Made by a program: the position numbers and the translations under genes | NCBI GenBank assembly: GCA_033439295.1 | Contig: JAVTLE010000004.1 | Span: forward strand, 1,426,012-1,490,011 | DNA length: 64,000 nt | DNA from: Deuterostichococcus epilithicus | Taxonomy: Eukaryota > Chlorophyta > Trebouxiophyceae > Prasiolales > Stichococcaceae | Reading direction: 5' to 3' | Shown: positions 1,859-61,200 of the stretch, piece by piece | Numbering within the stretch: position 1 is the first letter of the stretch | Layout of the letters: every line of letters starts with the position of its first letter | Notes under the pieces: generated by a model | What the model saw: only the letters and a program-made list of their open reading frames with translations | The model's database searches: none | Told to the model about the DNA's origin: nothing

Positions 1859-4800
1859 ATGGCAGAGGCCGAGACACCTGCGACGGTGCGTATCCTTGCC
1901 AGTCCTGTAGGTGCTGTGCCAAAGCTTGTGAGGTGCAGGTCATGGCCAGTCAGCCACGATGCTGTCCCGCACCAAGTGTCATGGTTGCAATGGCCTCGTG
2001 CCGGGACCTCATGGGTTCCTCGGCCGCGCAGGAACCGCAAGCTTCCACCGCAGGGCCCAGCGATCGCGTGGCCGGCGGCGGTGCCCTGGCCAATGGCTCG
2101 CCGGCGCGTATCCCCGACGTTGGCGAGAGCTCCCAGCAGGCCGGCGGCGGCGGTGACGAGCCCGGCGCCGAGCATGAGGCGCTGGCCACCAAGCTCAATG
2201 CGCTGGGCGGTCTGGTGGCGAGACTGGGCGTCGCGCTGCCACAGACGGATGCTGACGCGCTGCGAGAGGCCTTCAACTCCGTCGGCGGCGAGGCCGACCG
2301 CGCATTCAGCCAGGTGGGGCGCAGCGTGTGTGCCGAGTCATCAGAAGGAGCGGGCGGAGGGAAGGCGGGCCGGGGGATTCGTGGGCTTGATCATGGTCCT
2401 TGTTGGCCATGACGATCATTAGGCACCTGAAGTTGAGCTCCTGGAAAAGGCTGGCGCAGTGGGGGAACACGTGGGTGAGAGGGTTGGCAATCTCATGCTG
2501 CATCTCTGCACTGGATGCATGCCCCGACCTGGACCGCCGGCCGACTGAGAGGCCTGCGTGCCGCCCCGCGCAGGCGTCGGGCATGGCGACGCTGCTGAAC
2601 GACGCGCTGCAGCAGGCGGAGCGGCTGGCAGCGGAGAACCGGGAGCTGCGCCGCAAGCAGGAGGATGCGGTGCTCGACAAGTGCGCCCATTGTCTCTCCT
2701 CAGAAATGCAGGGAGCTCCAGATACCCAGGGAACTCCGGATCGCGGAATTCTGCATGGAGGGAAAAGCATGCGCATGGCCGGGGGCTGCGGGCGTTTGTT
2801 GGCCTGCAGTGCGTGGGGCCGAGGCTGGCCCGCAGCGGGCGCGGAGGCATTGTGCCCCAGCCTGTCAGCCGGCACCTGGCAGCCGGCAGTCCTGCAGCGG
2901 CCTCATCTGCCCCGGCATCACCCGCACAGCATTGCAATCGCTGGCTGTGGCGCACAACGCCTGATTCCTGCAAGCAGGCGCACCATGCCTGGATCTCGTG
3001 TGCCGCTCGCACGCCGCAGGTGGTTGAAGCATGTGCAGGAGACGACAGAGAAGCCGGGACGCCAGTAAGCGCTGGCGAAAGGCTGGAATGAGACTGGAAT
3101 CTGGAATGCGCCAGATTGCTCCAGTCACCAGCTCTTCAATATGCTTGCAGGCAGCTTCAGCAGGCACAGAGCGAGACAATGGAAGCTGCGGGTGACTTTT
3201 GGCGTACGAGCGGCAGCGGAAACCGGCCAACCACGCACCTGAAACTTGCGTGCCTGTTGCAATCGCTGCAGGCAGCTGAAGCAGGCGCAAGACGAAACAG
3301 AGAAGCTGCGGGTGGCCGGCGACGCCTACAAGCGCGAGCTGCTGCAGCAGAAGCTGTCCGACACGGAGTGGGCGCTGTCGAGGGAGCAGGACCGTGCAAA
3401 GGAGGCCGAGGCCGACAAAGCGGGTGAGTTCTTGGTTTTAGGGTTTAGGGTTCTGCAGGGCATCCTAAGGCGCCGATTGGCTTGCAAGCAGTTGTCCTAA
3501 GCAGTGCCATGTCGGGCCAGAGCCAGGGTTGCAGGGCTGCTGTATCCGCCATGCGCGGCCCGGAGAGCCCCCCACGAAGCCTTCGAAACCCTACAAGCCG
3601 CGACCTGCCGATCCCCGCAGACTCGCAATTCCTCTGACGCTCCGCCACCGCCGCCTTGCCGCAGCGCTGGCGGTGCAGGCGAGGCAGCTCAAGTAGCGGC
3701 TGCTCAGGCGGGCTCACATGCTGGTCGTCATCATGCCCTGTGTCACTGACACAATGTTCCCCTTCCGCCGCAGCGCTGGCGGTGCAGGTGAGGGAGCTCA
3801 AGACACAGCTCAAGGCGGGCGGCGGCGCCGAGGCCGTTTCGCCGCTGCTGCAGCTGGAGGGCTCCGATGCGCCGATGAGCGCGCGGGAGCGGGAGGAGCT
3901 GGCGGGGGCGCTCATGGCGGGGGAAGGCGACAAACGCACCGTTGACGCCCAGGCGCGCATGATCGGGGGGTTCCCAATGGGGTTTCCCAAACTGGCAGGA
4001 TTCAGGTGGCCCTCTGCGCAATGGTGCTCTGTCAGCGGTGTAATGCTCCATCAGCAGGGCAGTGGGATATCCAGGGTTGGCGCCGCTGGGGAACACAAAA
4101 GCCGCGCTGTGCACGCCGGGCTGCCTGTGGGGCAGCGCTTGCAGTTTCAGCGTTGGCTGCGCAAGCAAGGCAGCGCAGGGACGGGGGCTGCGCCAGACGC
4201 CGCACATCCGAACTGGGAGCATCGGCGCATCGCGGCATCACATCCAGGACTCGCCAGTCCTTCCTGCCGCGCACCAGACACCAGAGCATCTGTTGTGCGC
4301 GCCCGACGCTGGCTCGCCTTCCTGTTATCAACAAAAAAGAACAGAACGTCGAGTATAAATGTGGCGCAGGTGCTGGTGCGGGTGGTGAAGGGGCTTCGAG
4401 ACACCGCGGTGCTGGAGCAGCACTTGCAGCAGACGCTCCAGGTGAGAGAAAGTACAACGGGCTCAGGGTTTAGGGGGAAGTGTGCCCCCCACCCCCCGTC
4501 TCCCACTCCGAAATGCGCCCTCGGATGCACAAGCTGCCCTTGCAGCTCCGGTGCCTGCATGACCCATTGTGACCTGGCTGGTCGCAGCGGACCGTCTGAA
4601 GACCTGGGGCCCGAGGCCTGATCGGGCGTTGGCCGCTCCACCCCCGCAGGAGAAGGACCTGGCGACGCAGATGGTGTCTGGACTTGATGACTTGAGCTAC
4701 ATCTCGTTCATCATGTCGTAGAATCTGGTGCGTGAAGCTCATGGTGCCCCGCACCATCCCCGCAGGAGAAGGAGCGGGCGACGCAGATGGTGGAGGAGCT

Positions 4801-7800: not shown

Positions 7801-10446
7801 TCGCTGCGCGAGGGGGCGGCCTCCGGCGGCGTGGCAGCGGACGCATCGGCAGCGGGGTTCACCGGTTCTGGACCTGCTGCTGCTGCGCCTGCGGACGCTG
7901 TGTGGACGCAGCTGGGCGGCGACGCCGGCGCGGCGGCAGCGGCCCACGGCGGCGGCGGCGGCGGCGGCAGCAGCAGCGGAAGGGCAGCAGACACCGAGGC
8001 TGGTGGCGAGGCGGGCATCAGCGCGCACGACCGTGAAAACATGTACAGATTGTACAGCCACCATGTCGAGGTGACGCCTCCGGCTGAACTCGCCTCAAAC
8101 TGCTTCGTGTGCCTCCTCTTTCGCACAGGCCGCCTGCGAGCTGTGCCATCGAGGCCAATGGATCCGCAGGCATGTGCAGGCGGCACACCCAACAGCGGGA
8201 TGTGGACCGGCTCCAATGGCGGCAACCACGAAGGAATCATCGCCGCCCCGCCAATGGGCACACCAGCCGGCTGGCTGGAGACATGGCTCGGCAGCCCAGC
8301 ACGCCAAGGGAGGGATGGCTGCGTCTCGCGCGGCCTTAACCCAGCCCAATAAGAAAACCTGAAACTGACCCCCGCACAGGCGGAGGATGTGGGCGCCCTC
8401 AAGTGGCAGGCCGCGGAGCTGGCCAGCCGGCTGGAGATGATGCAGGCGCAGCTGTCCAAGGCGGCGCTCGCGGCTGAGCGCTCCGAGGAGGACCGCGGCA
8501 ACCTGGAGAGCGAGCTGGCGGCCGCACTGGCGGCCGCGACCACGCCGCCCGACCAGACGGTGCGTGGCCTTTTTCACTCTGCTCAGGTCTGTCGCGGCAG
8601 CCCAGAGTCCGAGCCGGCGACCACGCCGGCCGCTGCCCGACCTGAACGGCGCGGAGGAGGACCCGCGGAGCCGACCGGTGGGCAGTCCAGCCCTCGGCAT
8701 CCCAGCCGCAAGCCCTGGACGTGTTCTGAAACATCGGCTCATGCGACCGGACGCATTGCAGGAGCAGCTGACGGAGCTGACGGAGGAGCCATTCAAAACC
8801 TCGGCGTCTTGACACCCTTCAACCAGACGTGTATACTGTTTGTCGCAGGCGCTGGACGCGATGCAGGGGCGGCTGGCGGAGCTGACGGAGAAGCGGGGGG
8901 CGAAGGAGGAGGAGGCGGCCAAGCGCGCCCGCGACACCGACGAGCGCCTCAAGGCGGCGCAGGCCGCGCTGCAGGCCGCCCACCGCGAGCGCCAGGTCCC
9001 CCCCCGGGAAGCCTGCGGCCCCCGTCCCTGCTTCTGCTGGGTTGCATAGCGCTGCTAGGCTGCTGTCTTGATGCTCTACCACAAGGAGGGAGGCATGTGT
9101 GCATGTCGGCAGCACCTGGGCGCGCCGCTGCTGCGCCCCAGTTCAGCACATTTAAACCCCAGGGCCGTGCCATCACGAGCGCCTCGCCTGGGTCGACTTC
9201 AGCGTTCGGCTGAGCATTTCAGGGTCTGGGGTTGACATCCTCGAGCCTGTGCCGCAGGCGGCGGACGAGCGGGTGCGGAAACTGGAGAAGCGGCTTGCGG
9301 CGGCGTCCGCCGCACTGGGTCCCGCCGCGGTCGCCACCCTGGAAGCGGCAGACACCGCTTCCACAGCTTCCGGTGCGTCCATGGGCTCTAAACCCTAGGC
9401 CCCTGCATCTGTGCGCCAAGCTGCACCGCGCCTGAAACATCTGAAGCGGGGGAGGGGCCGGCTGCCGGGTGAACTGCTTGGGTCCGCTGACTCGACTGTC
9501 TTAATGCTGCCGTGCTGCGCTGCCCGGCTGCGCTGCCGTCTGCCCGACTCCACATCTGGGCCGCAGGCCTCACGGCGCGACGCTGCCGGTCCTCATGCCG
9601 CATGGCGTCGTCCTGGAGCTTTGGTCGCAGTGTCCGGTCCTCTGAGCGCAGGCGAGGACGGCGGCACGCCGCGGCGAGAGGCCCCGGCCTCGCCCGGGGG
9701 TGGCGCCTCCCCGTCGGCAGAGGATGCCGGCGGCGGCGGCGGCGGCGCCGCTGTCAAGCTGTCCGCCGGCGGCGTGGGCGGCACCTCCCGCCGCTGGGGC
9801 TGGGGCGACGTGGCGGGGCTGTCGGAGGAGGACCTGGAGGCGATGCGGCTGCGCGAGGAGAACGAGCTCCTCATGGAGAACCTCGTGCGCTCCAAGCTGG
9901 AGATGGCCGAAACGCAGAGTGAGCCGCCGCCCGCTGGGTCCCTGGTGGTCGGGAGGGCCTGTCACAGTCCTGTCTCCAACGCCTCGTGTGTGTGCAGCGC
10001 CTTCTCCTATTGGCGCGCGCCGGCTGCAGGGTGCCTGCAACAGCATTCCGTGCATGCCCTGACACCCACCTGTGGGTCCCTCCATGTGACGCGCGTGGCG
10101 CGAGGGCGCCGCAGCAGGGTTCACAGCGTGGGGCATGCCTGCAATCTTCAGTTCGGGCTGCACGCTGGTTTGGACGCCATACGCTTCGTGTGGCACAGGT
10201 GACTATGTGAAGACCAAGCGGGCGCTCATCAGGGCAGTGGAGAAGCAGGCGGAGATGTCCGAGAAAATGGACCTGCTCAAGGCTGAGCTGGAGGTGGCAG
10301 ACCGGGACGCAGGCGGCGGTGGCGGCGGCGGTACTGTCGCCGCCAGCAGCGGCGGCATGACGGCCTTCACCAGCTCGCTGCGCGACCGCCTGTCGTCAGC
10401 TACGAACGCCTTTGGCAGCGGCAGCCCCACGCGGGACGCGAGCTGA
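1859..10446 (+). CDS. large coiled-coil protein, 19 exons
   Basis: Exons: 1859-1885, 2032-2313, 2574-2680, 3272-3423, 3774-3952, 4370-4441, 4766-4897, 5264-5374, 5586-5689, 5939-6111, 6415-6554, 6864-7056, 7368-7474, 7753-8070, 8380-8559, 8849-8995, 9258-9372, 9631-9918, 10199-10446. They join in phase to 1024 codons plus stop. Long heptad-type segments rich in Glu, Lys, Arg, Leu and Ala occur at roughly residues 105-440 and 700-840 and near the C-terminus, for example KKLQDRIEKLRLENIRYR and EENELLMENLVRSKLEMAE. Between them lie Ser/Gly/Ala-rich disordered stretches. No motor, C2 or GRIP domain is visible, so it looks like a structural, tethering or scaffold protein; the family is not recognised. 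The first exon is short (MAEAETPAT) and was chosen because its donor GTGCGT fits the phase of exon 2. The exon ending at 3952 needs a GC donor. Several introns carry decayed copies of the neighbouring exon edge. Confidence 0.75.
3141..3195 (+). repeat. decayed copy of 3' splice junction (exon at 3272)
   Basis: This intronic segment repeats the acceptor and first 45 or so bases of the exon at 3272 with scattered substitutions, about 121 bp upstream of the true junction. The copy keeps the TGCAG acceptor but meets an in-frame TGA soon after. Confidence 0.8.
3435..3450 (+). repeat. telomere-like motif after a 5' splice site
   Basis: About two TTTAGGG units begin 11 nt after the donor at 3424. 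Confidence 0.8.
3651..3713 (+). repeat. decayed copy of 3' splice junction (exon at 3774)
   Basis: This copies 3763-3823 at a spacing of about 112 bp. The copy reads ALAVQARQLK and then a TAG stop, whereas the true exon reads ALAVQVRELKTQLK. The pyrimidine tract and CAG are also copied. Confidence 0.85.
4466..4475 (+). repeat. telomere-like motif after a 5' splice site
   Basis: A GGTTTAGGGG motif lies 24 nt past the donor at 4442. Confidence 0.6.
4638..4677 (+). repeat. decayed copy of 3' splice junction (exon at 4766)
   Basis: This copies 4755-4794 at about 117 bp spacing. The copied exon start (EKDLATQMV against the true EKERATQMV) soon meets a stop codon, so it cannot be a full alternative exon. 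Confidence 0.85.
8611..8645 (+). repeat. decayed copy of 5' splice junction (exon ending 8559)
   Basis: The segment resembles the last 25-30 bases of the exon ending at 8559 (shared core CGACCACGCCG), about 77 bp downstream and inside the following intron. It is weaker than most other copies. Confidence 0.5.
8749..8790 (+). repeat. decayed copy of an exon start (exon at 8849)
   Basis: This repeats exon bases 8855-8897 (ATGCAGG, then GCTGACGGAG) about 106 bp upstream, in the preceding intron. Confidence 0.75.
9388..9398 (+). repeat. telomere-like motif after a 5' splice site
   Basis: CTAAACCCTA lies 15 nt past the donor at 9373, here in the CCCTAAA sense. Confidence 0.6.
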
Positions 10447-15893: not shown

Positions 15894-20992
<5,099 letters not shown>

Positions 20993-21454: not shown

Positions 21455-23626
21455 ATGGGCAAGAAATGGCTTCCGCTGGAGAGCAACCCGGCCGTCTTGA
21501 ACGACTTTGCGGGTCGAATCGGATTCACCGACAGTAATTATCGCTTTTGCGACGTCTTCGGCCTGGACCCTGTGAGTGCCACGGAATCTCTCGATGCCCA
21601 TGAACATTCCGTCACCCTCGCCAGTGCAATCCCGCACAATTTCGCGTCAATCAGATCGAACTCGGATCATCAAGCTTGATCATGTGCGGCACCGGATACA
21701 ATTGGGGTTTGCGGCCTGCACGACCAAGCGCTGTTGCAGCATGGCAGCTGACCGCAGGCCTGCATCCAATCATCGCACGCATGCATAGCAGGGCGGTCGC
21801 AGATTTTGCGACAGTGACCGCACCAGCACCGCCGCAGCCGCTGCATTAGCAGCCCACGCCCACACGGCTGACGTGCGCTTCGTCACCCAATGCAGGAGCT
21901 GCTGCAGATGGTGCAGCAGCCGGTGCTGGCGCTGCTGCTGCTGTTCCCATTGACCCCACAGGCGGAGGCGGCCAAGGTTGCGCAGGAAGAAGAGGCAGCA
22001 AAGGCGGGCGGTCGGGCTCCGGGGCCGCAAGGACTGTACTTCATGCGGCAGACAATCGGCAACGCGTGCGGCACCATCGGGCTGCTGCACGCGCTCGGCA
22101 ATGCGCGCGGCGAAGTGCAGCTAGGTGCGCGCTGATGCCATCGCTGTGATCAGCTGCGCTGCTGATGGCCCCCAAAAGGCAGCACGGCACGTCGGTGCGG
22201 CACTCTAAACATGTCGCCATTCAGCAGCCAGGCCCTGGCATCCTGCCATCATTGCTGCAGGACGACACCACATCCCCACAGGGCGATATCGCACAGGCAA
22301 TGCCAGCTGAAATCCTGCAGCTCGACACACTGTGGGTTGACGCGCAGAGTCCGGCTCCTGGCTCGAAGAGTTCTTCCGCCGCACGGAGGCGATGTCGCCG
22401 GCGCAGCGCGGTTCCTTCCTGGAGCACCCGCCGTCGGATGCGCCCGCCCTCGACGACGCCCATGATGTGCGGCCTTGACCTGCCTCGACACATGAGCTCC
22501 GACTTGGATATTTAGTTCTGCTGTCGATAACCCCTGGGCTGTAGTAGGCCAAAAGAAGGTACTGCCCAGCTGCTCGGCTGATCTGGGCAGTGTGCCCGTG
22601 AGTGCAGCGGTGGGAGTCGCCGCATATTTGCGCTGGGCCGCTTGCAGAGCGGTGATCCATGCATTTGGTGTGCTTCGTGGTTGCTTGTGTTGCGGCAGCT
22701 TGCTGCTCCCTTTCTCGTGGCTATGTCGTGCACTAGCCGACGACCCTTCCCAGCGCCTGCGTGCGGCAGCCAACGAGGGCAACTGAAGTGGCCGGAGCCA
22801 AAGTCATCGCTGCGCATTGTCACATCGCTGACACCCGGCAACTGCCAGGCGCACCTGAAACTGCAGGCAGCAGCCGACGAGGGGCAGACAATGTCGGCGG
22901 GGGCCTCTGCAGGTCCACCGACCCGATGGAGCCTCTCATTCCCATATCTGATTCTCAGGATATGCGCCCACAAGACGGCGGCTGACGAGGGGCTACTGAC
23001 GCTGCTTCTTGGCTGCAGCAAACGAGGGGCAGACGAAGTTTCCGGAACCCGACGAGGGGGAGCGCTGCACTTTGTGACGCCTTGCATTGCCCGTCCGCCA
23101 GACAGCCTGAACCGTGACACCGCCGACGCGGCAGGCGGCGGCAAACGAGGGGCAGACGAAGCCGCCGGAGCCAGACGAGGTGGTGGCGCTCCACTTTGTG
23201 GCGCTGGTGGAGCGCGAGGGACGGCTGTGGGAGCTGGACGGCCGCAAGAGCGGCCCCGTACCGCACGGGCCCACCTCACGAGACACGCTGCTGCAGGCGA
23301 GCGCCTGCCCAGGACTCGTTCTCGGCCCCTGGGGACGTGCTTCGTGGCCATGCAGCAGTGCTGGGCGACCCGTGCTCTGCAGTTGTCGTCCGCTTGGCAG
23401 TGGCACTGCGCTTGGGATGCCGCCGAGAATGCTGCGGCACATCTGCCGGCCTCTGCTCGAGGTCTTCTGGCTCCAGGCGGAACCAATTCAAACAGCTGGT
23501 TTCTGAAGCGTGAGCCGTGCTCGCGTGCAGGACTCAGTGGCGGTGGTGAAGAAGTTCATGGAGACTGCCGGCGGCGACATCAACTTCAACCTCATCGCCC
23601 TTGCGCCCCCGTCGCCCTACGACTGA
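21455..23626 (+). CDS. ubiquitin carboxyl-terminal hydrolase, UCHL3 type
   Basis: Five exons in phase: 21455-21571, 21896-22124, 22348-22466, 23135-23296, 23531-23626; 240 residues, close to the 230 or so of UCHL3. These cysteine proteases remove small adducts from the ubiquitin C-terminus. The N-terminus ([21 protein letters not shown]) is family-typical. Exon 2 carries the oxyanion Gln and nucleophilic Cys in [18 protein letters not shown]. Exon 3 encodes the crossover-loop region ([18 protein letters not shown]). Exon 4 has the catalytic His in [10 protein letters not shown] and the Asp in [14 protein letters not shown]. The C-terminal [20 protein letters not shown] completes the fold. An extra Leu-rich stretch follows QQPVLA. 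All catalytic residues are present, so it should be active. The exon ending at 23296 needs a GC donor (CAG then GCGAGC). The intron before exon 4 is long and holds four decayed copies of that exon's start. Confidence 0.93.
22764..22803 (+). repeat. decayed copy 1 of UCHL3 exon-4 junction
   Basis: GCGGCAG, GCCAACGAGGGCAA and GGCCGGAGCC repeat the start of the exon at 23135. The CAGAC of the exon is replaced by a short deletion leading into TGA. Confidence 0.8.
22861..22900 (+). repeat. decayed copy 2 of UCHL3 exon-4 junction
   Basis: CTGCAGGCAGCAGCCGACGA and then GGGGCAGACAATG resemble the true GCAGGCGGCGGCAAACGA and GGGGC; about 100 bp after copy 1. Confidence 0.8.
22970..23000 (+). repeat. 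decayed copy 3 of UCHL3 exon-4 junction
   Basis: AAGACGGCGGCTGACGAGGG is the most eroded copy, about 105 bp after copy 2. Its acceptor CAG has become ACG. Confidence 0.6.
23011..23080 (+). repeat. decayed copy 4 of UCHL3 exon-4 junction
   Basis: This is the longest copy. It repeats the acceptor, the AACGAGGGGCAGACGAAG stretch, the GACGAGG part and the CTGCACTTTGTG around the catalytic His codon. It begins about 116 bp before the true junction. Confidence 0.85.
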
Positions 23627-24531: not shown

Positions 24532-27500
24532 TCACATCCCGCGGTCCAGGCGGCGTTGCGCGTAGCGCTCCGGGTCGATGCCATTGCGGGTGCCCAGCGC
24601 CAATGCCCGCACCGCGCCCGCGAGCGCCTCCGCCGGCGCCGCGGCAGCGCCTGGCAGCGCCCGCACCCCCCGCGCTATCGCCTGTCCAGTGTCATGTGAC
24701 ATGATACTTGGTGAGCCAAACGCTTACTCTGCACAGCGCTGCGGCCGTCAGATTGTGGGCCAGCGACCGCAGGGGAACGCGCCAGCAGGGGAACGCGCCG
24801 GCAGCGCTGCCGGGGCGCCACACGCCGCACTGCGTGACCGTCCATGGGGCCAGGCAGCGGCGACGCGCCTGACACAAACAGCACCGGCCTCGGAAGAAGG
24901 TGCAAGGGCACCCCTGGGCACACCCAGCGGCATGCTGGGGGCGCCATGCATGGGGCAGAAAGACCGGACGCGGGTCACAGGGGCAGGTCCAGAGCACGGC
25001 TTTCTGCCGCAGCCATCCTCACCGCGCCGAGGGAGGCGTCGCCGGATCGCACGGAGGCCGCCGGCGCGAGGAGCACTGCATGCGCGGCGGCGCCAAAGCC
25101 GCCCTGCAGCCGCGCGCCCGCCTGGCGCAGCCCCTCGCCCACGCCGGCCGGCTGCTCCGCATAGGTCGAAGAGGCGTGGCCCTGCAGCCCACAAACCCTA
25201 AAATGTTCACGGGTGGTGTGGGGACACCACGCAGGCTGTACTTGCTCAGGAATAGCCGATGCCCCGCCGGCAGTTCCGCATGGGAATACCGAGGCGTGGC
25301 CCTGCTGGCCCCTGGCCACCCGATGGTTGGTCGGAGACCCGGTGGACGCCACATGCCTTCACGACCATCCAGGTGCTGCTGCCTGAGACGCGGCCGGCAC
25401 GCGCCGGGCAGCCAGAGTCTGAACCCTCAACCCTGCACCAGATAGCTGCTGCGCAAGCGATGTGAAGCGGCCGCCACCGCCGCGCTGGCCCACTCAACGA
25501 GAAACGCAGCCTCGCCTGCAGCACGGCCTGCGCGCCGCCGGCGACGGTGGCGGACAAGCCCAGAGCCTCCAGCGCGACCGCGCGCGCCAGCGCCGTGAGC
25601 CCGCGCCGCAGCTGCCGCTCCAGAGGCACTGCGTCCGCCGGATGCTGGTTGTTGCCGCCGCCGCCGCCGCCGCCGTTCCTAGGCGTGCGGTCGCCCCGCG
25701 GCGTGCCTGTGGGGCGCGTCAGCGTCAGGGCTTGATCGCAATTCGCTGCCGCTGAGGGTCTGCGTCTGGCCGCATGTATTCGCAGCAGGGCACAGCTTGA
25801 TGGCTAGGGCGTCGATCAAACCCTTCGCTGCTGCAGGGTGTCTCCAGGGCTCACAGGTGGGGGTGGAGCGGCCAGCAGACTGCCGGTCGCGCGGCGAGCG
25901 GTGCGNGCCCCGCCTCTGCGCCGCCGCCAGCCGACCTGCACGCGCGAACGACACCCGACTGCGCGCGAACGCTGGTGCTCGCGCGACCAAACAACAGAGG
26001 AGGCCAGGCTCTACAGCTCGCACGCACACAGCAGATGCAGGCGCCGGCCTTGGGGCAGGGCCAGCGCCGCGCCTCTTCCCAGGCCACGTGTTGGCGGCAC
26101 CAGGCAGGCTGCGAGCTGCGCTGCACGGACCTTCCCGCCACAAACAAGGCCACGCAAGAGAAGGCAGCAGGGCTGGAAGCAGGAAGCCGACAGCGGGGCG
26201 CACCCGAGGGGATGGCGGCGAGCGGCGCGGCGGCGGTGCCCAGGCGCACCAGCGCCGCAATGGGCGCGACGCCAGTGACGAACCTGTGCGCCTGGCGGGC
26301 ACGGACACAGCAGAGGGAATCAGGGTGCGGCGAGGGTGGACAAGCAGTGGCTGTAGTGATTGCTTCAAAGAGCTTGCAAGGTTGCGCTCTACATCGGCAC
26401 CAGAACCCGGACGGACGGAGCTTGCGGCAGCCAGCGGCTCACGCCGGCGCTGCGCAGGCGCCGGCGTTGCAGTTCCTCCGAGCCGCGGCACCTGGTGTGT
26501 GGTGATGTCAGAGATGTAAGCGGCGGCGACGCCCTGCCCCACTGCGGGCCAGCCATTGGCGTCGGACAGCGCGACCCGCGGCAGCCGCAGCGCCACGCCG
26601 CCCCACGGCACCAGATTGAGCACCTGTAGACGTGAAACCCGTGCACTGTCAGCGACATCGCACTGTACGCGACGGCCTCCCAGATCAGGTCCTGTAGTCA
26701 CGAGCCAGACTGCGGCCGGCGCCATGCTGCCCTGCTGCCCGCGCCGGCGCAACATCAAAACAGTGCCAAGCCTCCGCAGTCCTCAGCGTGCAAAGCACCA
26801 TACTGGGGCGGCGCCACAGCAGCACGCCGGCAGCATCCTGATGAAACAGCACGCGCGTGCCGCTGGGGCAACACACCTCGACCGGCGCGCCTGTCAGGCG
26901 CAAGGCCAGCCATGCACGTTTCGTGCGCAGATGCTAGCAGCAAAGGGATGGAACTACACACCTCGACGAGCGCGCCGGCGCGCAGGGCGCTCAGGTCCAC
27001 ACGGCGGGGTTTGTAGTCCACCGTCACGGCCCAGCCGCCGACTGTGACCCTCCTGAACATGGGGCCTGGGCCACGGGCACGCATCGCAGTGAGGGACGAC
27101 CGTCGTCTGAGACTTACGACCGAAGTTCCTTCGCCCGTTGGTCTGGCTTGGGTCGCACGAGCGACCTGATACGCGTTCAAGTCCGTGTTGTCACGGATCG
27201 CGGCGCCAGGCATGCTCACGGTCGCTGGATCACGAACTTTTGCGGCTCATTGCGAGCTCAGCATTGTGGCACGAAATATCGATGAACTGGTGAAAGGAGG
27301 GCGAGCACACCTGCGTCGACCGCTGCCGCCGCCGCTACAGAGTCGGACTCCTCGTCAGAGGCGCCGGGCGCTGACACCAGCACCGGTGCCTCGTCGGCCG
27401 CCGGCGCCAGGAAGGCTGCCAGGAAGAGGCAGGTCCCCTGGTCCAGCCGCACCTGTGCGCAGAACATCTTACAGTGGGACATGCAGCGGAAGCCGGTAAA

Positions 27501-39500: not shown

Positions 39501-40192
39501 TACAGCGCAGTGATGGGCACCATCGCACGCGCAGCGCCGACGTAGGCGGCCGTGACTTCCCACCCCGCATCCGGCCCCTGCAGCATTTGGACAGTGCTCA
39601 AGCTCGGGTTGACATCAAGCAGATGTTCCTTGGGCAGACGCACAAGACCAGGCACGACACCTGCCCGGCATCCCCCTTGTATGCCCCGGGGACGATACTC
39701 TCCGCTTTCCCATTCACGGCTTCACGAAGCCTTGAAGGACCCATGGCTCCAATCATACCAAGAGCTGCGCGTCAGGCCGTCGGCCGTCCAGTAGCAGCCT
39801 TTGCAGCTGCAGCGACCCTCCGCTTTTCCTCTTAGAATGTTGAATCCCACAGCATCTCTGTTCCGCACTAACTGCACATTGAGGCATTCGCGATCGAGCA
39901 GCAGGCCCAACGCTTGTCGCTAAAGAATAAAGAGGGGAATGATATATGCCACACAACGACAACCCCTTCCTTCTCCATGGGTCCAACGAGAGAAGCGACT
40001 CACCAGCTGCGCATTGAGGTAGTCACAATCGAGCAGCAGGCTCCGCAGCTGCAGCGAGCCGGACCCGAGCGCTACATCGAGACTGTCCAGGTCCAGGTCG
40101 CCTCGCAGGGCTCGCCCCAGGTGGCGCTTCAGCAGAAAGCGCGCTACGCGCTTGAGCGCCCAATCAGTCGTGCCGCCCAGCATGCTGTTCAA
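24532..40192 (-). CDS. ATG2: autophagy-related lipid transfer protein ATG2, 32 exons
   Basis: Exons: 40192-40004, 39577-39494, 39249-39096, 38906-38762, 38524-37877, 37693-37459, 37227-36488, 36246-36090, 35950-35453, 35351-35001, 34736-34611, 34364-34185, 33900-33715, 33520-33356, 33046-32930, 32838-32543, 32327-32006, 31727-31505, 31265-31131, 30919-30688, 30532-30042, 29421-29237, 28987-28751, 28343-28236, 27975-27898, 27452-27311, 27065-26962, 26623-26492, 26291-26204, 25706-25516, 25181-25023, 24681-24532. They keep phase for 2415 residues; plant ATG2 is nearer 1900. ATG2 bridges ER and phagophore and moves lipid in autophagy. The N-terminal chorein part (DWALKRVARFLLKRHLG, DLDLDSLDVALGSGSLQL), the LDLLPLRVRLDQGTCLFL strand, the CAD region (VDYKPRRVDLSALRAG, VLNLVPWGGVALRL) and the tail (GLRQAGARLQGGFGAAA, GTRNGIDPERYAQRR) fit the family. 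Extra length comes from Gly/Ala/Ser/Gln-rich inserts in exons 5, 7, 9, 17 and 21. An in-frame ATG at 40183 is an alternative start. The exons ending at 33356 and 25516 need GC donors. The donor at 34185 is the least certain. Confidence 0.9.
25193..25203 (-). repeat. telomere-like motif near a 3' splice site
   Basis: In the gene's sense this reads TTTTAGGGTTT, ending about 12 nt before the acceptor of the exon at 25181. Confidence 0.6.
25255..25300 (-). repeat. decayed copy of 3' splice junction (ATG2 exon at 25181)
   Basis: In the gene's sense, CAGGGCCACGCCTC is shared exactly with the true junction, followed by a degenerate match to the next 30 bases (ATGCGGA, GCCGGC). It lies about 115 bp upstream of the true acceptor. 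Confidence 0.85.
28357..28376 (-). repeat. telomere-like motif near a 3' splice site
   Basis: In the gene's sense this reads CCCTACCCTAAACCCTACCC, 14 nt before the acceptor of the ATG2 exon at 28343. Confidence 0.75.
28652..28660 (-). repeat. single telomere-like heptamer within an ATG2 intron
   Basis: One CCCTAAA on the plus strand, about 90 nt past the donor of the exon ending at 28751. It is the only intronic example not close to a splice site. Confidence 0.4.
29887..29938 (-). repeat. decayed copy of 5' splice junction (ATG2 exon ending 30042)
   Basis: This repeats the exon end coding TPPDAELDVEG (plus strand 30036-30090) about 150 bp further into the intron. The shared core is CACCTTCGACG and GCGTCTGGCGGCGT. 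Confidence 0.8.
30275..30292 (-). repeat. telomere-like sequence inside a coding exon
   Basis: CCCTAAACCCCAAACCCT lies within ATG2 exon 21 and would encode GLGFR in the disordered insert. It is either an exonised telomere-like element or part of an intron I did not separate. Confidence 0.5.
32914..32925 (-). repeat. telomere-like motif after a 5' splice site
   Basis: In the gene's sense the donor GTGCGGG runs straight into GTTTAGGGTTTCC, 5 nt past the end of the exon at 32930. Confidence 0.75.
34257..34257. other. ambiguous base in ATG2 exon 12
   Basis: The N falls at the third position of a CCN codon, so the residue is Pro whichever base is correct. Other Ns are at 25906 and 34560 (ATG2 introns), 46363 (TZF intron) and 49453 and 49480 (intergenic). 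Those at 34560 and 46363 sit beside G-runs and look like base-call gaps. Confidence 0.8.
36990..37034 (-). repeat. in-frame tandem repeat in ATG2 exon 7
   Basis: A 24-nt unit is repeated twice with one change, encoding PQRQQEGA followed by SPQRQ in the disordered insert. Confidence 0.7.
39779..39820 (-). repeat. second, more eroded copy of ATG2 exon-1 end
   Basis: The plus strand shares CAGTAGCAGC and GCAGCTGCAGCGA with exon 1 around 40040-40062. It lies further into intron 1 than the copy at 39849. Confidence 0.55.
39849..39912 (-). repeat. decayed copy of 5' splice junction (ATG2 exon 1)
   Basis: This repeats the exon-1 end and donor at 40001-40060 about 147 bp into intron 1. On the plus strand the shared blocks are GCACTAACTGC, CATTGAGG and GATCGAGCAGCAGGC. 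The GTGAGT donor has become TTAGTG. Confidence 0.8.
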
Positions 40193-44870: not shown

Positions 44871-44908
<38 letters not shown>

Positions 44909-50153: not shown

Positions 50154-53100
50154 ATGGGCATCAAGGGCTTTACGTCCTGGTTCAGGCAGCAGTTTCCGAG
50201 CGCGTACGTGCCACGGCTGCCGCGCTACGACCACGTCTACATCGACGTCGCGCCGCTGCTGTATGTCGCCAGCAATGGTGCGGCCGCTGCATGCCTCCGT
50301 TACGTTTATTGAGCAACCAGATGCAGGAACCAATCTGGTCTCGAAAGACTCATGACTGCAGCGCCGTCCCTGCGGAGTGCAAGGTGCAGACGGGGACGCG
50401 CCTGCAGTTCTGCTGTGGGCCCTGACGCTTTACCCTCATATTGTGTGCGCACAGTGCGGCATGAGGAAGCGTGCTTCAAAAAGCTGCACAGCGGGCTGGA
50501 CATGGCGATGGCGGGCCTTGATACTGTGAACCTACGACCGCCTGACTGCGTCCCGTGTGCTCACAGTGCGGCATGAGGAGGCGTACTTCAACAAGCTGTA
50601 CTCCGGGCTGGACAGGGCGATGTCGGTCACGAAGCCGCAGCGCAGCGTGCTGCTGGCGGTGGACGGCCCCGCGCCCCTCGCCAAGCTGCTGCTGCAGCGG
50701 TGCGCTCGCGCCCGGGCTGCCCACCCTCCGCCATTGCAACGTCACCTGACGTGCATCATGAGAGCAGTCTGGCACAGAGTGCCCCGTGCCGCTCGCCAGG
50801 TCGCTGCTGCGATGGTGCGCGCCCGCCCGCCTTGCCCATAATCAGCACGATTCGCATCCCTCCTCATGCCTGCCCCCAGCAATCTTCTCGACAGATGCTT
50901 CGCAACCTGACGGACGGGCCCATCTCTGAGCGGCGCAGGCGCCGACGGCAGCTGACGCTGCGGCGTGAGGTGCGTGCCACCCGACTCTGCTGTAGGCGGC
51001 CGCACCCTGGCAGCGGCCGACCGGGCAACGCAGGCGCCGGCGGCGGCTGGCGCTGCGGCGGGAGAGCTGCATGGCCGCCATCCGGATCCATGCTCTGCGT
51101 GACCGATTTGCATTCTGAGGGCTGCCAAACCCCCCAATGCAGGCGCCGTCGGCGGCTGACGCTGCGGCGGGAGAGCCGGGCGGGGCCGCCGGGAGCGGTG
51201 TCGCTGCTGGGGCTGACGCCAGGCACACCCTTCATGGGCCGCGTGGAGGCAGGGCTGGCGTTTTACGCGCTGCAGCGGCTGCAGAACCGGGCCTGGCACG
51301 CCGTCGCCTTTGAGGTGTCCGGCTCCACTGTGCCGGTGAGCACTCTTGAGCCTTGCAACATTTTTGAATCACCTGAGACTCAAAATGCTTAAGAGGCTTG
51401 CGAAGGCTTGCTGCGAAAGCTACGCGCTGCAGCGGCTGCAGAACTCGGCCTGGCAGAACGTCGCCTCTGTGCTATCCGGCTCCACAGTGCCGGTGCCGGT
51501 GCGCATTTCGAGACGTCTGTTTTCTTGACATCTGGGTTGAAAAGTCGGCATCTTGCGCGCTGCCGTGTCCAGAACCTGAACACGAGCAGCAGGGCTTCAC
51601 GAGCAGCAGGGCTCCACACGGAGCCGCGGCCAGCGTGGTGTGGTTCGTGTGAAAATCGCTTACTTGCATGCGAAGGTGTGCAGAAGATCCAGGCGGGTAT
51701 GCAGTGGGCACTGACCCATCACACCCCAGGGGAATTCCAGGCCACCTGATGCGCCGCAGCAAAAGCATGGTCACTCGGCCCGACACCGGTGGCTCGCATC
51801 ATCCTCTGCGGATGGTGGTCCGCCTGCATTGGCACACAGTGCTCCGCTGCGCGACCAGCATGACGACCCGACAAGTTGACTATAGGAAGCGAGAGCTGAC
51901 TTCTGGCAAGTGAGAGCTGACTTCCCACTGCGATGTCTGCGCAAGACAGCAAGGGCGTGATGACGATGGAGCACCTTCTGCGGAGGACGCAAGCATTATG
52001 TCACCTGCAGTATCACCCGACTGTAAACCGCTGTTTGAAAGGTTGAGTCCTCAATCTCCACACAGGGCGAGGGTGAGATGAAGATGGCGCACCGGCTGCG
52101 GGAGCCGTGGCCCGACTCCGTGCAGCCCGGCGAGAGCCACCTCATGATGGGCGGTGCGCCTGTTGCTTTCTGCACTGTCGTACCCTGTAGCGTAGCGTCT
52201 CGAGCCTGGATGCCCAGTGCTCTGGAGCCTCCCGCCCTCCCCACAACTGGTGCATAACTCAGGGTCTGCCGCGGCCGCGGGGCGGGGGCGCCCCCCGGGG
52301 GGTCTAATACCGCCAACAGAAGCCCCACTTTGGTTTGCCTCGTGGACAAAGCACGGCTCCTGCTGGCTCCGCAGCCGGGCTTGGACCTGTCGCTCATTTG
52401 CGAGACCGCAAACGCCACGGCTGCTGGGATGTGTGCACATCGCCAACAGTCGTCCAGGTTCTCTTGGGCGATTACGTAAGGCGGTTTCCCTGCAGCCGAC
52501 TCGGACCTGACGCTCATCGCGATGCTGGCGGAGCCGCACCGGCTGGCCGGCGGAGCTGACGGTGATGCGCCGTTCACGCTGCACGTGGCTGCGGAGCCCA
52601 CGCGGGGGCCGCCGCGCCGCGGGCAGCAGAACATCCAGTCGTCGCTGGGCTGCTTCGACGTCGGGCGACTGAACGCGGCGCTCGCAGAGCTGCCGGCGGC
52701 TGGCGGTGACGCCGGCGCCGTGCCGGTGAGGCGCCCCTCTTTTCAGCCCTGCCCTGCTCGCTGAATTGGCACAGCTGCCAGCGGCCGGCAACGCCCGGCG
52801 GTGACCCCGCAGTCGTGCCAGCAAGGCCTTTCCATAGTCCTACCCTTGGCAAGCGAGGCAGCGCAGCTGTTGGTGTCCTGCGGCAATCCTGCAGCCGTGC
52901 TGGTCAGCCCCCTGGGCCCAGTCTCTGTTGCAGCACGTTCCCCGTTGTTTCGCCAATGTGCAGACGGCTGACCCGATCCACAACACCAGAGCTGCGCCGC
53001 CTCCCGCACCCGGTCAACCAAGCAAGTTGACTGGTCGCCTGCCGACCCAGATGGCCGCATACGCACAAGTGCACCGCCTCTGCCTGTTGAAACCTGGGAG

Positions 53101-53686
53101 TCTCCCGGCCGTTTGGCGCTGCAACTGGACCTGCCGGCGTGTGGCAGGCAATTGACCATCTGGCGGGGGATCCTTGAACCCTTTGAAACCTGACGCTTCA
53201 GCACTCTATCCTATCTACTTCAGGCGCTCAAGCTGGACCTGGCGGCGTGCATCATCCTGGCGGCAGGCAACGACTACCTGCCGGCGGTGCGCGGGCTGCA
53301 CACCGCGCGGTCCCCCCTGGAGCGCCTGTGGGCCTGCTACCTGACCCTGCGCGCGAGCAAGCGCTTCCAGAACAGGCGAGTGGGTTTTCAGGGTTTAGGG
53401 CTGCCGCTCCCCCGTGGGAGCGCCTGTGGGCCTGCTGCCCACAGCTGCGCGCCACCAAGCGCTTTCACAGCGGGCAACCGTGACTCAAGGCTGCTGCTGC
53501 CATGCAACATGCGTTCTGCTTCAGTGAGGCTGTCCCGGGTGCGGTTTACTGGGGTTCAAGCTCTTTCAAGGTTGGCAGCATTGGGCACCAACAAACAGGC
53601 AACCTGCATCGGCGACGTCAGCTGCTGCTGCTGCAGCCTCCTCCGCAGACTGCGGCTGCCCCTGCACGTTCTGCTGCTCCTGCGCG

Positions 53687-53722
<36 letters not shown>

Positions 53723-56700
53723 TGATGAGGCTGCCGAGCAAGTCCGTCAGCGCTCAGTAGCAGCTCAGTCGAGGCTGCCCAGCAGGCACACGTGCGCGCC
53801 GGCATCGTCTCCTGCAGACGCATCTCTTTGCCAAATTGTACCAGCACGACACTCATACTTGCGCCTGCAGGCCACTGCTGAAGCAGCACGCGTGCATGCT
53901 GGCGCCACAGCTCACGGCAGACAGCTTCCTCACGGTCTCTCCCAATGCCTGTAGAACGCTGATCAAGCGGCATGCGCGCACCGGCGTCGTTTCCTTCGAC
54001 TCCATCGTGCTGGCCAAGCTGCTGGAAAAGCGCGGGGTCATTCCGGTTCCGGTGCCCAAGGCGGCGGCGGCTCCAGCGGCGGCTCGCAAGGCAGCGGCAG
54101 CTTCCGCAGCCGATCGTACGGCAGAAACTGCTGCAGGCGCGGCGGCTCCTGCAGCGGCGGCGGCGGCGGCAGCCAGCGGCGACTCTGACGTCGAGGCAGA
54201 CGCGGAAAGCGGCAGCGGGCAGCTGCTGCCGGCAGACGCCGTCGAATACCTTCAGGCGAGCCACCCTCCCAGAGCTCTCCTTCCAGCTGACATGGCTCTT
54301 CCCTGCTCCTCAGGACCTGGCGCCTGTGCACAAGATGCAACATGGCGTGCTACGGGTGTCGGACATGGTGCATCCGGCCGGCGGCTGCAGTTGAACAGAC
54401 TGCTCTGTTCCTGGCAGGGCGTGCTGTGGGTGCTGGACATGTATCTGACCTCGGATTGCCCGGACTACCGGTTCACCTACGAGCGAGAGGCGCCGCACGC
54501 GGCGGCACTCATGGAGGCTGCAGTCGCGATGCCCACCATCCGCCGCAAACGCCTGCCGCAGGCGCGTGCAAGCCCATAGCCGCCCAGCTTCAACGGCAGG
54601 CCCGTCCCTGAGTGTCGTCAGCGCAACGCTTGCTTTTGTGTGCGCGCTGATGTAGGTCATCTGCAGCTGCACCAGCAGCCTGTCACTGCTCTGCCCACCT
54701 TCAACCAGTCGCTGACCAGCCCGGCAGCGGCAACCAGCCCTTCGCCCTGCGCTTTCGAGCAGGGCGGGCCATGCACGATCAATTCCGAACACTCCATTAA
54801 AGCCTTAAACTTAGACTAATACGCTCCACTTCCCGCCCCGCAGGCGCCCGTCAGCGCGCGGCCGGGGCGGCGCAGGCGGCGCGCGGGCTCGCCGCTGAGC
54901 CCCGCCGCGACCGCGATGGCGATGCTGCCCGGCGGCGACGCGTCGACGGAACACGCTCCGGCTACCCTGGCGCACCTGCTGCAGCCGGGCAGCCCGCTGT
55001 TCCCGCTGTACGAGGTCTGCGGCACTTGTGAGGCGCTGGTGGACACCCTGGCCGCCGCCAACAATGTGCGCCCCCAACACGAAGCGCACTCGAACTGGAA
55101 CCGACAGATCTCTGATCAAAACCCGGTGCTGCCAGAACTCCCGCAGTCCCCGCCGCACAAATGGTGCGGAGCCTGTGAGGCTCTTGTCGAAACTTTTGCC
55201 GCCGCCAACATCTTGTGCCGTGGGCCTGCCATCCAACAGCCCAATGTTCCCGTTGGACGAGGTGTGCAGCACCTGCAAAACGCTGGACTCTGGTTGTGTG
55301 GCTTTGCCACAAGTTTGGGAAGGCCAGCAGCATGCAGCTGCTTGCTCTGGCAGGGTCCCACATCGAAAATCACACAGTCACAAACTCCAACCGTGCTGCC
55401 TGCATGCAGTCGTTGCCAAGTCAACTGGAGACCTGGACTGACACGCGAGCCTAGCTATCTCCAGAAACTGCCAACCTTTCTCATCTCGGCGAAAACCCCT
55501 CTCTTGGCGACAATCTTCCACGACCGCTCCCGTTGCAGGCGCTGCAGTTTGCCATGAAGGCAGCAGCGACGGCGCCGGAGGGCGCCGTGGCAACCGGCGG
55601 CGGCGGCGGCGACGGCGGCAGCCCCACTGCGCCCGCAGAATACATGGAGAACCTGGTAGCGGCCGCCAAGAAGGCCGTGCGGTGGGCACCTCGCCATGGA
55701 CGCGCGCGTGCCTGGCCGCCCTGTCACGCAGCCACGAACGCGATGGCCCACGCTGCTGTCGCAGACGCGCCAAAGCCGCCCCACACGTCTCAGCACCACA
55801 GCGAGCCGCAGAATGGCGCGTCCACGCTGATGCCCTGAAAACCATGACATCAAGCACGCCGACGCCGCCCCTCCCCAGCTGGCGGACCCGGAAGCTGCCC
55901 AGACAACATCGAAACGACGACAAGAGCCTGTGGCCTGTGCCTTCCGCAGGGCGGCGGACGCCCGGCGGCAGGCGCACCAGCGGGCCGCGCACCCATACGA
56001 GCCCTTCCCGCTCGAGCAGCTGGAGGCGGCAGTGGATGCCGTGGAGTACCCCAAAGAGGAGGCGGCGCTGAACCACTTCGGCGCGTCCACCCGCTACAGG
56101 CGAGGCCCTTCTGCTACAGCAAGCCCATTGGTGGGGCCCGCCGCTTGTGCGAGGGAATGGCCTGCACGCCCTGCGCCAGACGGGGTGAGGCTGTCGCGGC
56201 AGTGCGGCGGGCCGCCGACGGCTTGTCAGCCAAGGGCGTTGCGCGGGCAGCTCGTGTGTTGCGTCGACTAACGGGCAGCCCTTTACCTGAGCGTCTGGGC
56301 TCCGCACCTGGTCAGCGTGTCGAGGCTGCTGCGGTGGAGCCCACGAGAAGACGAGGCTCCGAAGCGTGCACATTGAACCATGCCGCTCTGATCTTTGCAG
56401 GCACGCCAGCTGGGCGCGCATGCGGGTGCTGAAGCCGCCCTCCGAGCGCGTCTCGCCGCTGCTGCCCCGACTGCATGTCGCCAGGTGTGTCTGCCAGAAG
56501 ACCTGGGCAGAGCTCTGCTGCAGCGTTCAGGCACGGACACCCTGGCAGGCCTGAGAGCAACATTCGAAAGCCCGCTGTTGCACAGGAACGGCTGTCGGAA
56601 ACCACTGCTGCCGCTACAGCTGCTGCTGCTGCTGCTGCTGTCCACAGTGAGTTGAAGCTGGCCAGCGAGACCTGTCGGGTACCTCCGCCAAACCTTAAAC

Positions 56701-58270: not shown

Positions 58271-61200
58271 ATGTCGGCTGTCGCCGGCACCGCGCACCAA
58301 GTATTTGTGGTTGTCAGCACCGTGATGTGGGGTTTCTATCGCAGCTTCTACTTTGACCGCGCGGCCAAGGTACAACTTTTGAGCATAACAGACAGCGTTG
58401 TGACTCAGTGAAGTGTGCCATATGCGCTGCATGACAGCAGGATTCAGACCTGGTGGAACTATCAGCCACGCTGAAGCTGCTTTCAGGCTGTGTCCTAAGA
58501 GGAGAGCCAACCTCGCTCGCGTTGTGTATCGGTTGCTGATCTTGCAATGAACGCATTGATTGCACTGCCCTTCGCAGGTGTTTGTTCCGGAACACACACG
58601 GGAGGCCGCCTTCCAGCTTTTCTGCGACCTACGGTGAGTGAGCGGCTGGGGCACGTGCATCACTGCAGCGCTGGGGCCTGTTGGGCTCACACACTTGCCG
58701 CTGCGGACACTGTACTGGCACGTCCTGAGCAGTGGCTTCGTGTGCTACAGCACGAACACACCAAAGGATGCGGCATTCTTCCGGCGCCATGCCACCGCGC
58801 TGCAGCCCCACACCTATCTGGGCTGGCTGGTGCGCCATGAATCTCCTCCAAGATTGACGACTACATGCAACGGTATTGTCTCAGCCTTGCAGCGTCGGAG
58901 CAGCGTATGCAAGCGGGGTTGCTGACCGGGTGTGCACACGGCCGCAACATGTACAAAACACCTGCAGGCTGCCGCCGTGGTGCTGCTGTGCGCCTCGACC
59001 TACACTGCGGCCGCGACGGCAATCGCCCTGGCCGTCGCTGTGGCCGCCCTGAACGTCATCCTGGTGCTGTCCGTGCTCGGAGGTGGGTGAAAGTTTTTTG
59101 GATTTAAAACGATTCCAAATACTGTAGTTACGCAAAGGTGGCAGGGCGCTGCTGTTCTGACATGAGAAACTCACATTAATCCATGCTGATGCATAGCGTA
59201 CTCTTGCTGCACTGACCTTGCACATGTACTGGAAATGCATGTTTGGGGCGCCACCCTCATGCAAGGCTGCGGCATTGTGATCGGACCAGTGGTGGCAGTC
59301 CCACCCAGGACGACCGCAGCGTGCACCGAGCGCCAAGGCTTCGTTTGTCTGCCGCAGGCGTGACGCTGGCGGTGGTGCTGGGCTGCACCAGCGTGGTGCT
59401 GTTTGGGGCCGCCTGCATTGCTGGCTCCACCGCCTTCACATGCGCCCTGGGTGCGCATTGGGGCCTGCAGTCCACTCAGTGTTCTTTCCACCACTGCGGC
59501 ACCAGCTATCATTGCCCCGCCTCCTGTTTCGATGGTCTCGAGCTGCAAGGCTCTGAAAGGAGGCGACACAACCGGCAAGAGCCCCCGGGTCAGCAAACAT
59601 CCGGCTGGCATTCAGCTGCCACCCAGCAAGCACGTGGCGACCTTGAGCCATTCCGCCGATTACAGCTGCTGGGTATCGACCCCAATGCTGTTCCGCATGC
59701 AGCGTACACTGGATTCGCGACCACCAAGTTCGTGGCGACGTCGGCGGCGCGGCTGCTGCTGGGGCCGCAGACCGCCGGCGAGACGCGTGCCAGCAGCAGC
59801 CAGCAGCAGCTGCAGGGTGCACCGCAGCAGGCAGCGTTGGAGGCTGCGCCGGAGGATGAGGTGGCGCAGCCGCAGGCGGGGCCGCCAGACTCGCAGGTGG
59901 GGAGCAGGGTTCGGGCGAGTTCCGTGCGGGCACTCGCTGCACACCTGCTTCGCTGGCAGCAGTCGCTCGGGGCGCAGCTACCATCAGAGCGTGCCGTCGC
60001 GCTGCTGATATCACACAGTATCCGGTAGAGCGTCCTTGGCGGCCTGCTGGCAAGCACAAGCACGGAGTTGGCGCATGATGCTGACAGAGTCCCAAAGCCA
60101 CCCACTGCTCGGCTCGCGGTGCGAACAAGAGGAAGGGAGCTGACGCGATTGGACGCGGACATTGCGGCGCCGCCGCCGGCGGAGGCCATCCGAGTGTGCT
60201 TTACATACCTGTACTTACTGATCGGCGTCGGAACTGCGCAGGAGGAGGAGGAGGAAGCGCAGCAGCTGGACGCGGACGCGGCGGCGGCGGCGGCGGCCGC
60301 AACGGACCGTGCACGCTCGACGCTTGCGCACTTGCCCGGCGGCAATACGCCTGCTGCGCAGTACGCCATGGAGAAGCTGGGCCTTGCGCCGCCGCTCGAG
60401 GACAAGTGAGTCTGCAAGCCTCTCAGCATACAGTCACTGAAGCGATCCTAAGTGACCTGCTGTATGCCATCGAGAGGCTGGGCTTCGCGCCTCCGCCCAC
60501 CGCGACGCCGTCCATCATCACGGGAATGGTTTCCGCCTATCAGGAGACATATCTTCCTCCAAGCTACAACCTGAAACTGCTGCGGTGCACAGTGAAGCAG
60601 CGCGGCCTCGCGCCGCCGTTTGGGGACTCGTGAATGGGCCACGATCTGAGGGACACCTCGAAGCCGGAAAGGAGCAGCTGCAGTGTGCCTCAGGACGCAC
60701 AGACGCTGTGTTGTGCTCGTAGAACGACTGTGCCGTTTGGCAGTGCATCGATTTCGGAGCTGGACAGAGTCCCAACACACCAACCAGCCCCTCGCCATTC
60801 TGACGCGATACCTGATGTGCAGGACGGCTGCCCTCGGGGAGGTCGACCAGCGCCACCCGCTGGCGCCAGTGTCGGACGCGGCTGGCAATGTGCCGCCGGC
60901 GGCGGTGGATGCGTCAGAGGCGGCCAGCGCTTCGGCTGTCGGGTCTTCGCTCTTCCTCACACCTACCAAGAAGGTGATTTGCATTGCACTGTGGGGCGGA
61001 TGCTGTGGCTGCAGCAGTGCTGCCCGGTGCATAGGAGCGCCACTGCTGCCGTTGCAGGAAACGAAGGACACTTCCGCTGTGCCTCGTCTGCGGCAATTGG
61101 ACAAGCGCAGTGTCCAAGAATGTTGGTGCTAAGATCGTGCGAGGACCCGAGGACGTGCTTGGAAGGCGGACTGACGCATCGCTTCCGGCTGCTGCAGAAG

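Follow-up and report, generated by a model that had tools for sequence, protein, structure and literature searches.

Decayed copies of exon ends in the flanking introns of Deuterostichococcus epilithicus, probably left by tandem duplications across splice junctions

The 64,000-nucleotide stretch of Deuterostichococcus epilithicus DNA analysed here (hereafter the window; assembly GCA_033439295.1, contig JAVTLE010000004.1, positions 1,426,012 to 1,490,011 of the forward strand) belongs to contig C4 of a genome assembled into 21 contigs with 46.8 Mb in total, has a guanine-plus-cytosine (GC) content of 60–70% along its length, and holds genes in which many exon ends are accompanied by decayed copies of themselves inside the adjoining intron. 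For a wider sample, the window was combined with 19 of 20 additionally fetched 10-kb stretches (L005, a tandem array with 51 N, was left out), giving 430 introns. Gene models came from a small gene finder whose training set was the window together with the 19 loci (513 exons) and which returned the splice consensus AG|GTGCG for donors and YGCAG|G for acceptors; predicted exons shorter than 45 bp between introns were merged into the intron, and introns were used only if they had exons on both sides. When the gene models of the window were rebuilt with ten copy regions masked and the seven resulting protein pieces scanned for domains, matches were obtained to XRN_N (residues 1–192), Peptidase_C12 (residues 1–181), RRM_1, IFRD, and MMR_HSR1, with ATG2_CAD just below the cut-off and one piece without any match.

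Within the window, an ungapped self-comparison with a low-complexity filter (score of at least 20) gave 19 local direct repeats at offsets of 25–250 bp, seven of them at 100–125 bp, and no pair at this score at offsets of 250–3000 bp. The original prediction, made by eye, had claimed about 20 junctions with intron-side copies, and when each of its 21 junctions was compared with 500 random intron stretches, 20 proved to have a copy with p no higher than about 0.01, 18 of them at p 0.002–0.006. Marginal among these were junctions 20242 (p 0.008, or 0.010 when repeated, with the best match at d = 229) and 52725 (p 0.010), with junction 52496 reaching p 0.036. The gene finder placed the junctions where the prediction had put them, except for one exon end, at 18888 instead of 18898. 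Moreover, testing all window junctions of the gene models gave p < 0.01 in 35 of 232 tests versus 2.3 expected, a count in which the pair 51335/51433 appears twice and in which eight cases (offsets of about 268–338) may overrun the intron or be of low complexity, since a fixed 300-bp stretch was used. Here, further copies came to light at junctions 50699, 52066, 53224, and 60242. As had been predicted, no copy was found at score 20 in the introns of the IFRD gene (0/8) or the TZF gene (0/13).

The junction copies are real and recur outside the window. When 90-bp exon ends were aligned to their own flanking intron, with a score of at least 20 taken as a match, copies were found for 27 of 425 exon heads and 20 of 416 exon tails, compared with 28 of 17,000 heads and 28 of 16,640 tails in swapped controls against other introns, an own-intron excess on both exon ends. 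Exon interiors used as queries gave 1/177 and 0/170 matches, and reverse-complemented queries matched for only 2 of 425 heads and 0 of 416 tails, which shows that the copies are direct. They also lie almost exclusively in the intron on their own side of the exon, as the far-side intron yielded 0/293 heads and 1/293 tails against 21/293 and 17/293 on the own side. Copy-bearing introns number 42 of 430 in all, with 17 among the 116 window introns and 25 among the 314 from the other loci, and nine loci other than the window, on different contigs, contribute copies with a divergence of 10–30%. The same offset peak was observed at the 19 other loci, with 13 pairs at 100–125 bp and, out to 1200 bp, one pair beyond 300 bp. 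By our own count, the 64 pairs with a score of at least 18 and offsets of 50–300 consist of 35 exon/intron, 3 mixed, 7 intron/intron, and 1 exon/intergenic pairs; the remaining 18 are exon/exon, seven of which lie in one repetitive coding stretch of locus L002 and four of which are window copies that the gene finder had labelled exons.

Realignment with 120-bp queries raised the number of tails at score 20 to 21, and the counts that follow therefore use 48 matches. The copy-to-junction distance ranges from 57 to 286 bp, with medians of 116 bp on the acceptor side and 139 bp on the donor side; the predicted spacing of 75–155 bp, often 100–125 bp, describes all loci well, with 39 of the 48 matches at 75–155 bp and 24 at 100–126 bp. 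On the acceptor side, matches start at exon base 1 (the query's own first base) in 20 of 27 cases and reach exon base 36–95. The gap between a copy and the junction in use is 20–171 bp for acceptors and 8–213 bp for donors, mostly 30–110 bp, and falls below 28 bp in two matches, one of them the CAG-rich match in L010. Copies on both sides of a single intron were seen in six introns versus 1.3 expected (2.0 among introns of at least 250 bp). In keeping with the predicted intron growth, copy-bearing introns are long, having a median length of 452 bp versus 256 bp for those without copies. By length class, a copy occurs in 3 of 185 introns below 250 bp, 11 of 161 at 250–400 bp, 24 of 58 at 400–700 bp, and 4 of 25 above 700 bp. 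Internal repeats were found in 11 of 48 introns with exon copies, 6 of 312 without them, and 2 of 360 controls.

Mismatch rates between copies and exons rise with codon position, from 0.157 (141/898) through 0.198 (176/888) to 0.240 (212/884), and these rates rule out coding constraint on the copies. Together with the 79 gap openings in the alignments, this is a decay as non-coding DNA, plus a little silent change in the exon. Splice sites had been predicted to be lost in many copies; instead, they are mostly kept, with C, A, and G at positions −3, −2, and −1 retained at 0.86, 0.71, and 0.90 in 21 copies of 3' junctions and GTG at 0.62, 0.88, and 0.75 in donor-side copies (n = 8), and the splice bases are lost about as fast as the exon part. 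Splicing at the copy would cause a frameshift or an extra stop in 21 of 25 window cases. The junction used in RNA is presumably the inner one, contiguous with the exon body. Here, the XRN_N and Peptidase_C12 matches of the masked models span copy-bearing junctions, whereas open frames, because they follow from the gene finder's own rules, are by themselves no evidence for junction use. The window copies are collected in Table 1. In the intron at 22467–23134, the two clear copies of one exon head (d of 123 and 268) are perhaps joined by a third near 22768.

Table 1. Copies of exon ends in introns of the window (positions in the window; d, copy-to-junction distance; "alignment", exon-end alignment)
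Positions	Strand	Copied junction	d (bp)	Remarks	Support
3151..3217	+	3' junction/exon head 3272	121	decayed	p 0.002, alignment
3658..3713	+	3' junction 3774	109	added segment with in-frame stop	p 0.002
4633..4713	+	3' junction 4766	116	similarity 17 bp into intron	alignment, random-stretch test
8593..8652	+	exon tail ending 8559	104		p 0.002, alignment
8743..8789	+	exon head 8849	106	acceptor lost	p 0.002, alignment
18581..18620	+	exon head 18707	126	partly GGC-rich	p 0.002, alignment
18940..19015	+	exon tail ending 18888	127		p 0.002, alignment
22867..22900	+	exon head 23135	268	second copy	alignment
23012..23080	+	exon head 23135	123	ubiquitin hydrolase (Peptidase_C12) gene	p 0.002
25255..25301	-	exon head 25181	120		p 0.006, alignment
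29895..29931	-	exon tail ending 30042	147		p 0.002, alignment
39872..39906	-	exon tail ending 40004	135		p 0.002, alignment
50443..50514	+	3' junction 50567	112	XRN_N gene; 88% over 72 bp	p 0.002
50781..50838	+	exon tail ending ~50699	115	similarity 24 bp into intron	p 0.002
50934..50969	+	3' junction 51143	204	farther copy	alignment
51026..51079	+	3' junction 51143	109		p 0.002
51421..51495	+	exon tail ending 51335	157	87% over 75 bp	p 0.002
51949..51983	+	exon head 52066	118		p 0.002
52373..52420	+	exon head 52496	~120	weak copy	p 0.036 only
52782..52819	+	exon tail ending 52725	95	weak copy	p 0.010
53115..53180	+	exon head 53224	108		p 0.004
53405..53467	+	exon tail ending 53375	98		p 0.002, alignment
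54344..54367	+	exon head 54418	74	short copy	p 0.002
55121..55210	+	exon tail ending 55065	147		p 0.002
55237..55286	+	exon tail ending 55065	247	second copy	window self-comparison
60129..60199	+	exon head 60242	116	GCG-rich	p 0.002, alignment
60459..60496	+	exon tail ending 60405	101		p 0.002, alignment
60593..60633	+	exon tail ending 60405	224	second, weaker copy	window self-comparison

We consider it probable that these copies go back to tandem duplications crossing splice junctions, the outer copy becoming intron and the introns growing as a result. Small local tandem duplications, typically of 75–155 bp, would arise in genes, for which we propose break repair as the likely source, and one that spans an intron–exon junction would bring in a second splice site. 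Splicing would then use the junction contiguous with the exon body, which would keep the reading frame and therefore leave the mRNA unchanged, while the other copy, an exon end with its splice site, would become intron and decay without constraint. Each event would leave the intron about 100 bp longer, and repeated events could give two to five copies and make up a large share of long introns. Whole units in keeping with the predicted local direct duplication across the junction are preserved at two places. At L017:9411 (9178–9469), a 133-bp unit composed of 74 bp of intron and 59 bp of exon head is present in 2.2 copies with 92% identity over 159 bp, and 58 of 60 intron-flank bases are identical. 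At L007:9034 (about 8780–9070), we noticed by eye about five units of about 57 bp in a row; every unit comprises the end of the intron, an acceptor, and an exon head, and the final one is the junction in use. Most units of this array (8780–9070) also have a CCTAAACCC-like motif in their intron part.

Several observations weigh against this interpretation. A nearly intact whole unit is found in only two of the 48 matches, so that the process has not been caught running steadily. Moreover, when the query is extended into the intron, the match grows by a median of 5 bp for acceptors and 3 bp for donors, whereas about 20–54 bp of intron-side similarity would be expected from simulations with equal decay rates and the exon identity that was observed. 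The originally predicted duplication of a whole unit of roughly 100 bp is therefore not fully supported. Whole-unit tandem duplication with equal decay as a sufficient account is ruled out by two simulations, a result that a third one, with detection bias, more indels, and faster flank decay, softened to a 1.5–2-fold excess. Exon identity and flank similarity, which should rise together, are weakly correlated (rho 0.24, p 0.14), and the fraction of 3' matches starting at exon base 1–2 is 0.80 (n = 25) versus 0.56–0.58 in the best simulations. Lastly, the copies are concentrated in certain genes or loci (p 0.0005 by permutation, and 0.006 within intron-length classes) in a manner that the proposed course leaves unexplained: copy-bearing introns number 6 of 16 in L004 and 5 of 15 in L017, and ten loci (166 introns) have none. 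Gene clustering and the scarcity of nearly intact copies together suggest a past burst or a gene-specific tolerance.

Several flank statistics leave out the nearly intact L017:9411 and L007:9034; these two are kept in the test of extension against the control 95% level, which, like one equal-rate simulation, leaves out matches starting past exon base 3, and the flank z-scores leave out those starting past exon base 6. Beyond 10 bp, acceptor flanks of copy and junction show about control-level identity (n = 20), and donor flanks at 10–20 bp out show an identity of 0.37 versus 0.26 in controls (n = 7). Among 23 acceptor cases, five, including both nearly intact loci, extend past the consensus by more than the control 95% level, as does one of 14 donor cases. 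For the 39 cases other than L017:9411 and L007:9034, the overall flank similarity is weak, and in global alignment the residue is weak but significant (mean z 0.61, n = 23, p 0.014; mean z 0.55, n = 16, p 0.037). A model of tandem duplication with detection bias, more indels, and a flank decay 1.5–2 times faster comes close to the data in score, identity, extension, and flank z.

Since the intron half is nearly gone in older copies, we keep as an alternative, though a rather unlikely one, a splice-site-aware process that places a copy of an exon end in the intron next to it, leaving the intron flank uncopied, for example by repair from the exon part of a transcript–DNA hybrid or by template switching at the junction CAG. 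Such copying, strictly bounded at the splice site, was our strong earlier reading and was lowered to a rival after a third simulation. It would account for the sharp end of the similarity (20 of 25 accepted 3' cases extend 1–17 bp into the intron), for the control-level acceptor flanks, and for the copy at L017:7460, which has 89% identity and no flank similarity. However, both nearly intact cases duplicate the intron flank, the weak flank similarity is significant overall, the sharpness is largely explained by detection bias and faster flank decay, and no mechanism for it is known. It is unlikely, too, that the splice junction itself guides the copying, with transcript-linked repair repeatedly writing exactly cut exon ends into the adjacent intron; if it did, introns would be built of worn images of their own exons.

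A tandem duplication whose exon half was afterwards preserved by sequence conversion or by function, as a decoy or regulated splice site, seems quite unlikely. The exon half does appear to decay about 1.5–2 times more slowly than the intron half, and the CAG and GTG of the copies are kept at the rates given above, but this retention is about what neutral decay would leave if it ran as fast as in the exon half, the copies often contain indels and stops, and they occur in unrelated genes. It is very improbable that the copies serve as genuine exons, alternative or mutually exclusive. While the gene finder reads four window copies as small exons (4650–4673, 18581–18619, 50939–50969, and 51433–51498), the frame would be broken in the great majority as noted, no coding-type constraint is seen, and at most spacings there is no room for a complete exon together with an intron. 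A few matches are of low complexity (L010:2973, CAG-rich; 60242, GCG-rich; 18707, GGC-rich), but an origin of the copies by chance, low complexity, or faulty assembly can practically be dismissed: the offset scan and the swapped, inverted, and random-stretch controls speak against it, and an assembly error is not expected to yield copies diverged by 10–30% in the window and nine loci on different contigs.

For tandem duplication, the apparent preference for junctions may itself be an artefact of detection, because duplicates wholly inside introns would have worn away. The power to see intron-internal duplicates of the same age is 0–0.07 if the flank decays 1.5–2 times faster, against up to 0.53 at K 0.2 with equal rates, and an inference from the scarcity of such duplicates was dropped, given a power near zero under faster flank decay. 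Exon ends can be regarded as tracers: duplications that are traceless inside introns are recognisable at the intron edge, because there one copy stays conserved. With a trace in 24 of 58 introns of 400–700 bp, the rate, size, and fate of intron-lengthening duplications become measurable, and the buffering of duplications by splicing becomes directly testable. To our knowledge, intron lengthening without mobile elements is poorly documented.

Among other features of the sample, telomere-like CCCTAAA/TTTAGGG 7-mers were counted 31 times in introns, twice in exons, and not at all between genes in the window and the 19 loci, with window introns carrying them at, for example, 3430–3460, 4463, 19455, 20855, and 56705. 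For the corresponding 14-mer, the whole genome holds 619 occurrences. Of the first 100 in the list, many lie at contig ends, including (CCCTAAA)n at one end each of contigs C1 and C3, and the rest are spread through contig interiors. The stretch left out of the sample, L005 (C3:900001–910000), is a dense, satellite-like tandem array with a GC content of 0.72 and 51 N. Two introns of L002 (187 and 182 bp) align over 201 bases with 70% identity and belong perhaps to neighbouring gene copies.

Introner elements form dispersed families that are a genome-wide source of intron sequence. The junction copies resemble them in being such a source, yet no dispersed family was found in the introns tested: comparing the 430 introns all against all gave two matches at E < 1e-4, and in a search of the 46.8 Mb that skipped very common words, the only matches of two copy-rich introns were to themselves and to the exon that follows each. 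An introner or other dispersed element is therefore unsupported by either search.

Tandem duplications made by break repair are typically direct repeats with sharp breakpoints, often accompanied by microhomology. In humans and plants, the repair of breaks arising from nearby nicks has been linked to small tandem duplications (PMC8355091), and the copies here share with them a direct, local, tandem character; in the available part of that paper, this is a mutational mechanism without a link to splice junctions. With the AGGT or exon-duplication model, as known from exon duplications with intron gain in Drosophila (PMC2891723, available part), they have in common a local tandem duplication made harmless by splicing. 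There, however, only exon sequence is duplicated, exonic on both sides of a new intron as long as the duplication, whereas most copies here retain the CAG or GTG of a junction that already existed, and they are located within the intron, at least 28 bp from the junction in 46 of 48 matches, a comparison that concerns the copies and not the first origin of the introns.

A search of titles and the beginnings of abstracts, with most subscription papers outside its scope, gave no description of recurrent junction copies in introns, and the pattern is not described in the available parts of the Coccomyxa genome paper (PMC3446292) and an intron review (PMC3488318). Closest is the potato RdRp gene, for which the available part of the report (Ma, Lan and Niu 2016, PMC4974935) describes a tandem duplication across an intron–exon boundary that gave rise to a new intron, as well as an 83-bp tandem duplication within the first intron. 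The potato unit crosses the junction and carries branch site, pyrimidine tract, and acceptor; units of this type, with intron end and exon end head to tail, were seen here at L017:9411 and L007:9034, with weak flank similarity overall in the other cases. The four window copies read as small exons have both acceptor and donor and are candidates for new introns of the potato type or for alternative exons. The contrast with known models drawn in the original prediction accordingly holds for the AGGT model; for junction-crossing tandem duplication, it is reduced to a different outcome. In potato, the outer piece of exon remained part of an exon, and a new intron arose that uses a cryptic donor, whereas here the corresponding piece has apparently joined the old intron, on acceptor and donor sides alike and at tens of junctions. 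While one junction-crossing tandem duplication was already known, what is new is the recurrence of such copies, the probable outcome of longer introns, and the link with intron length.

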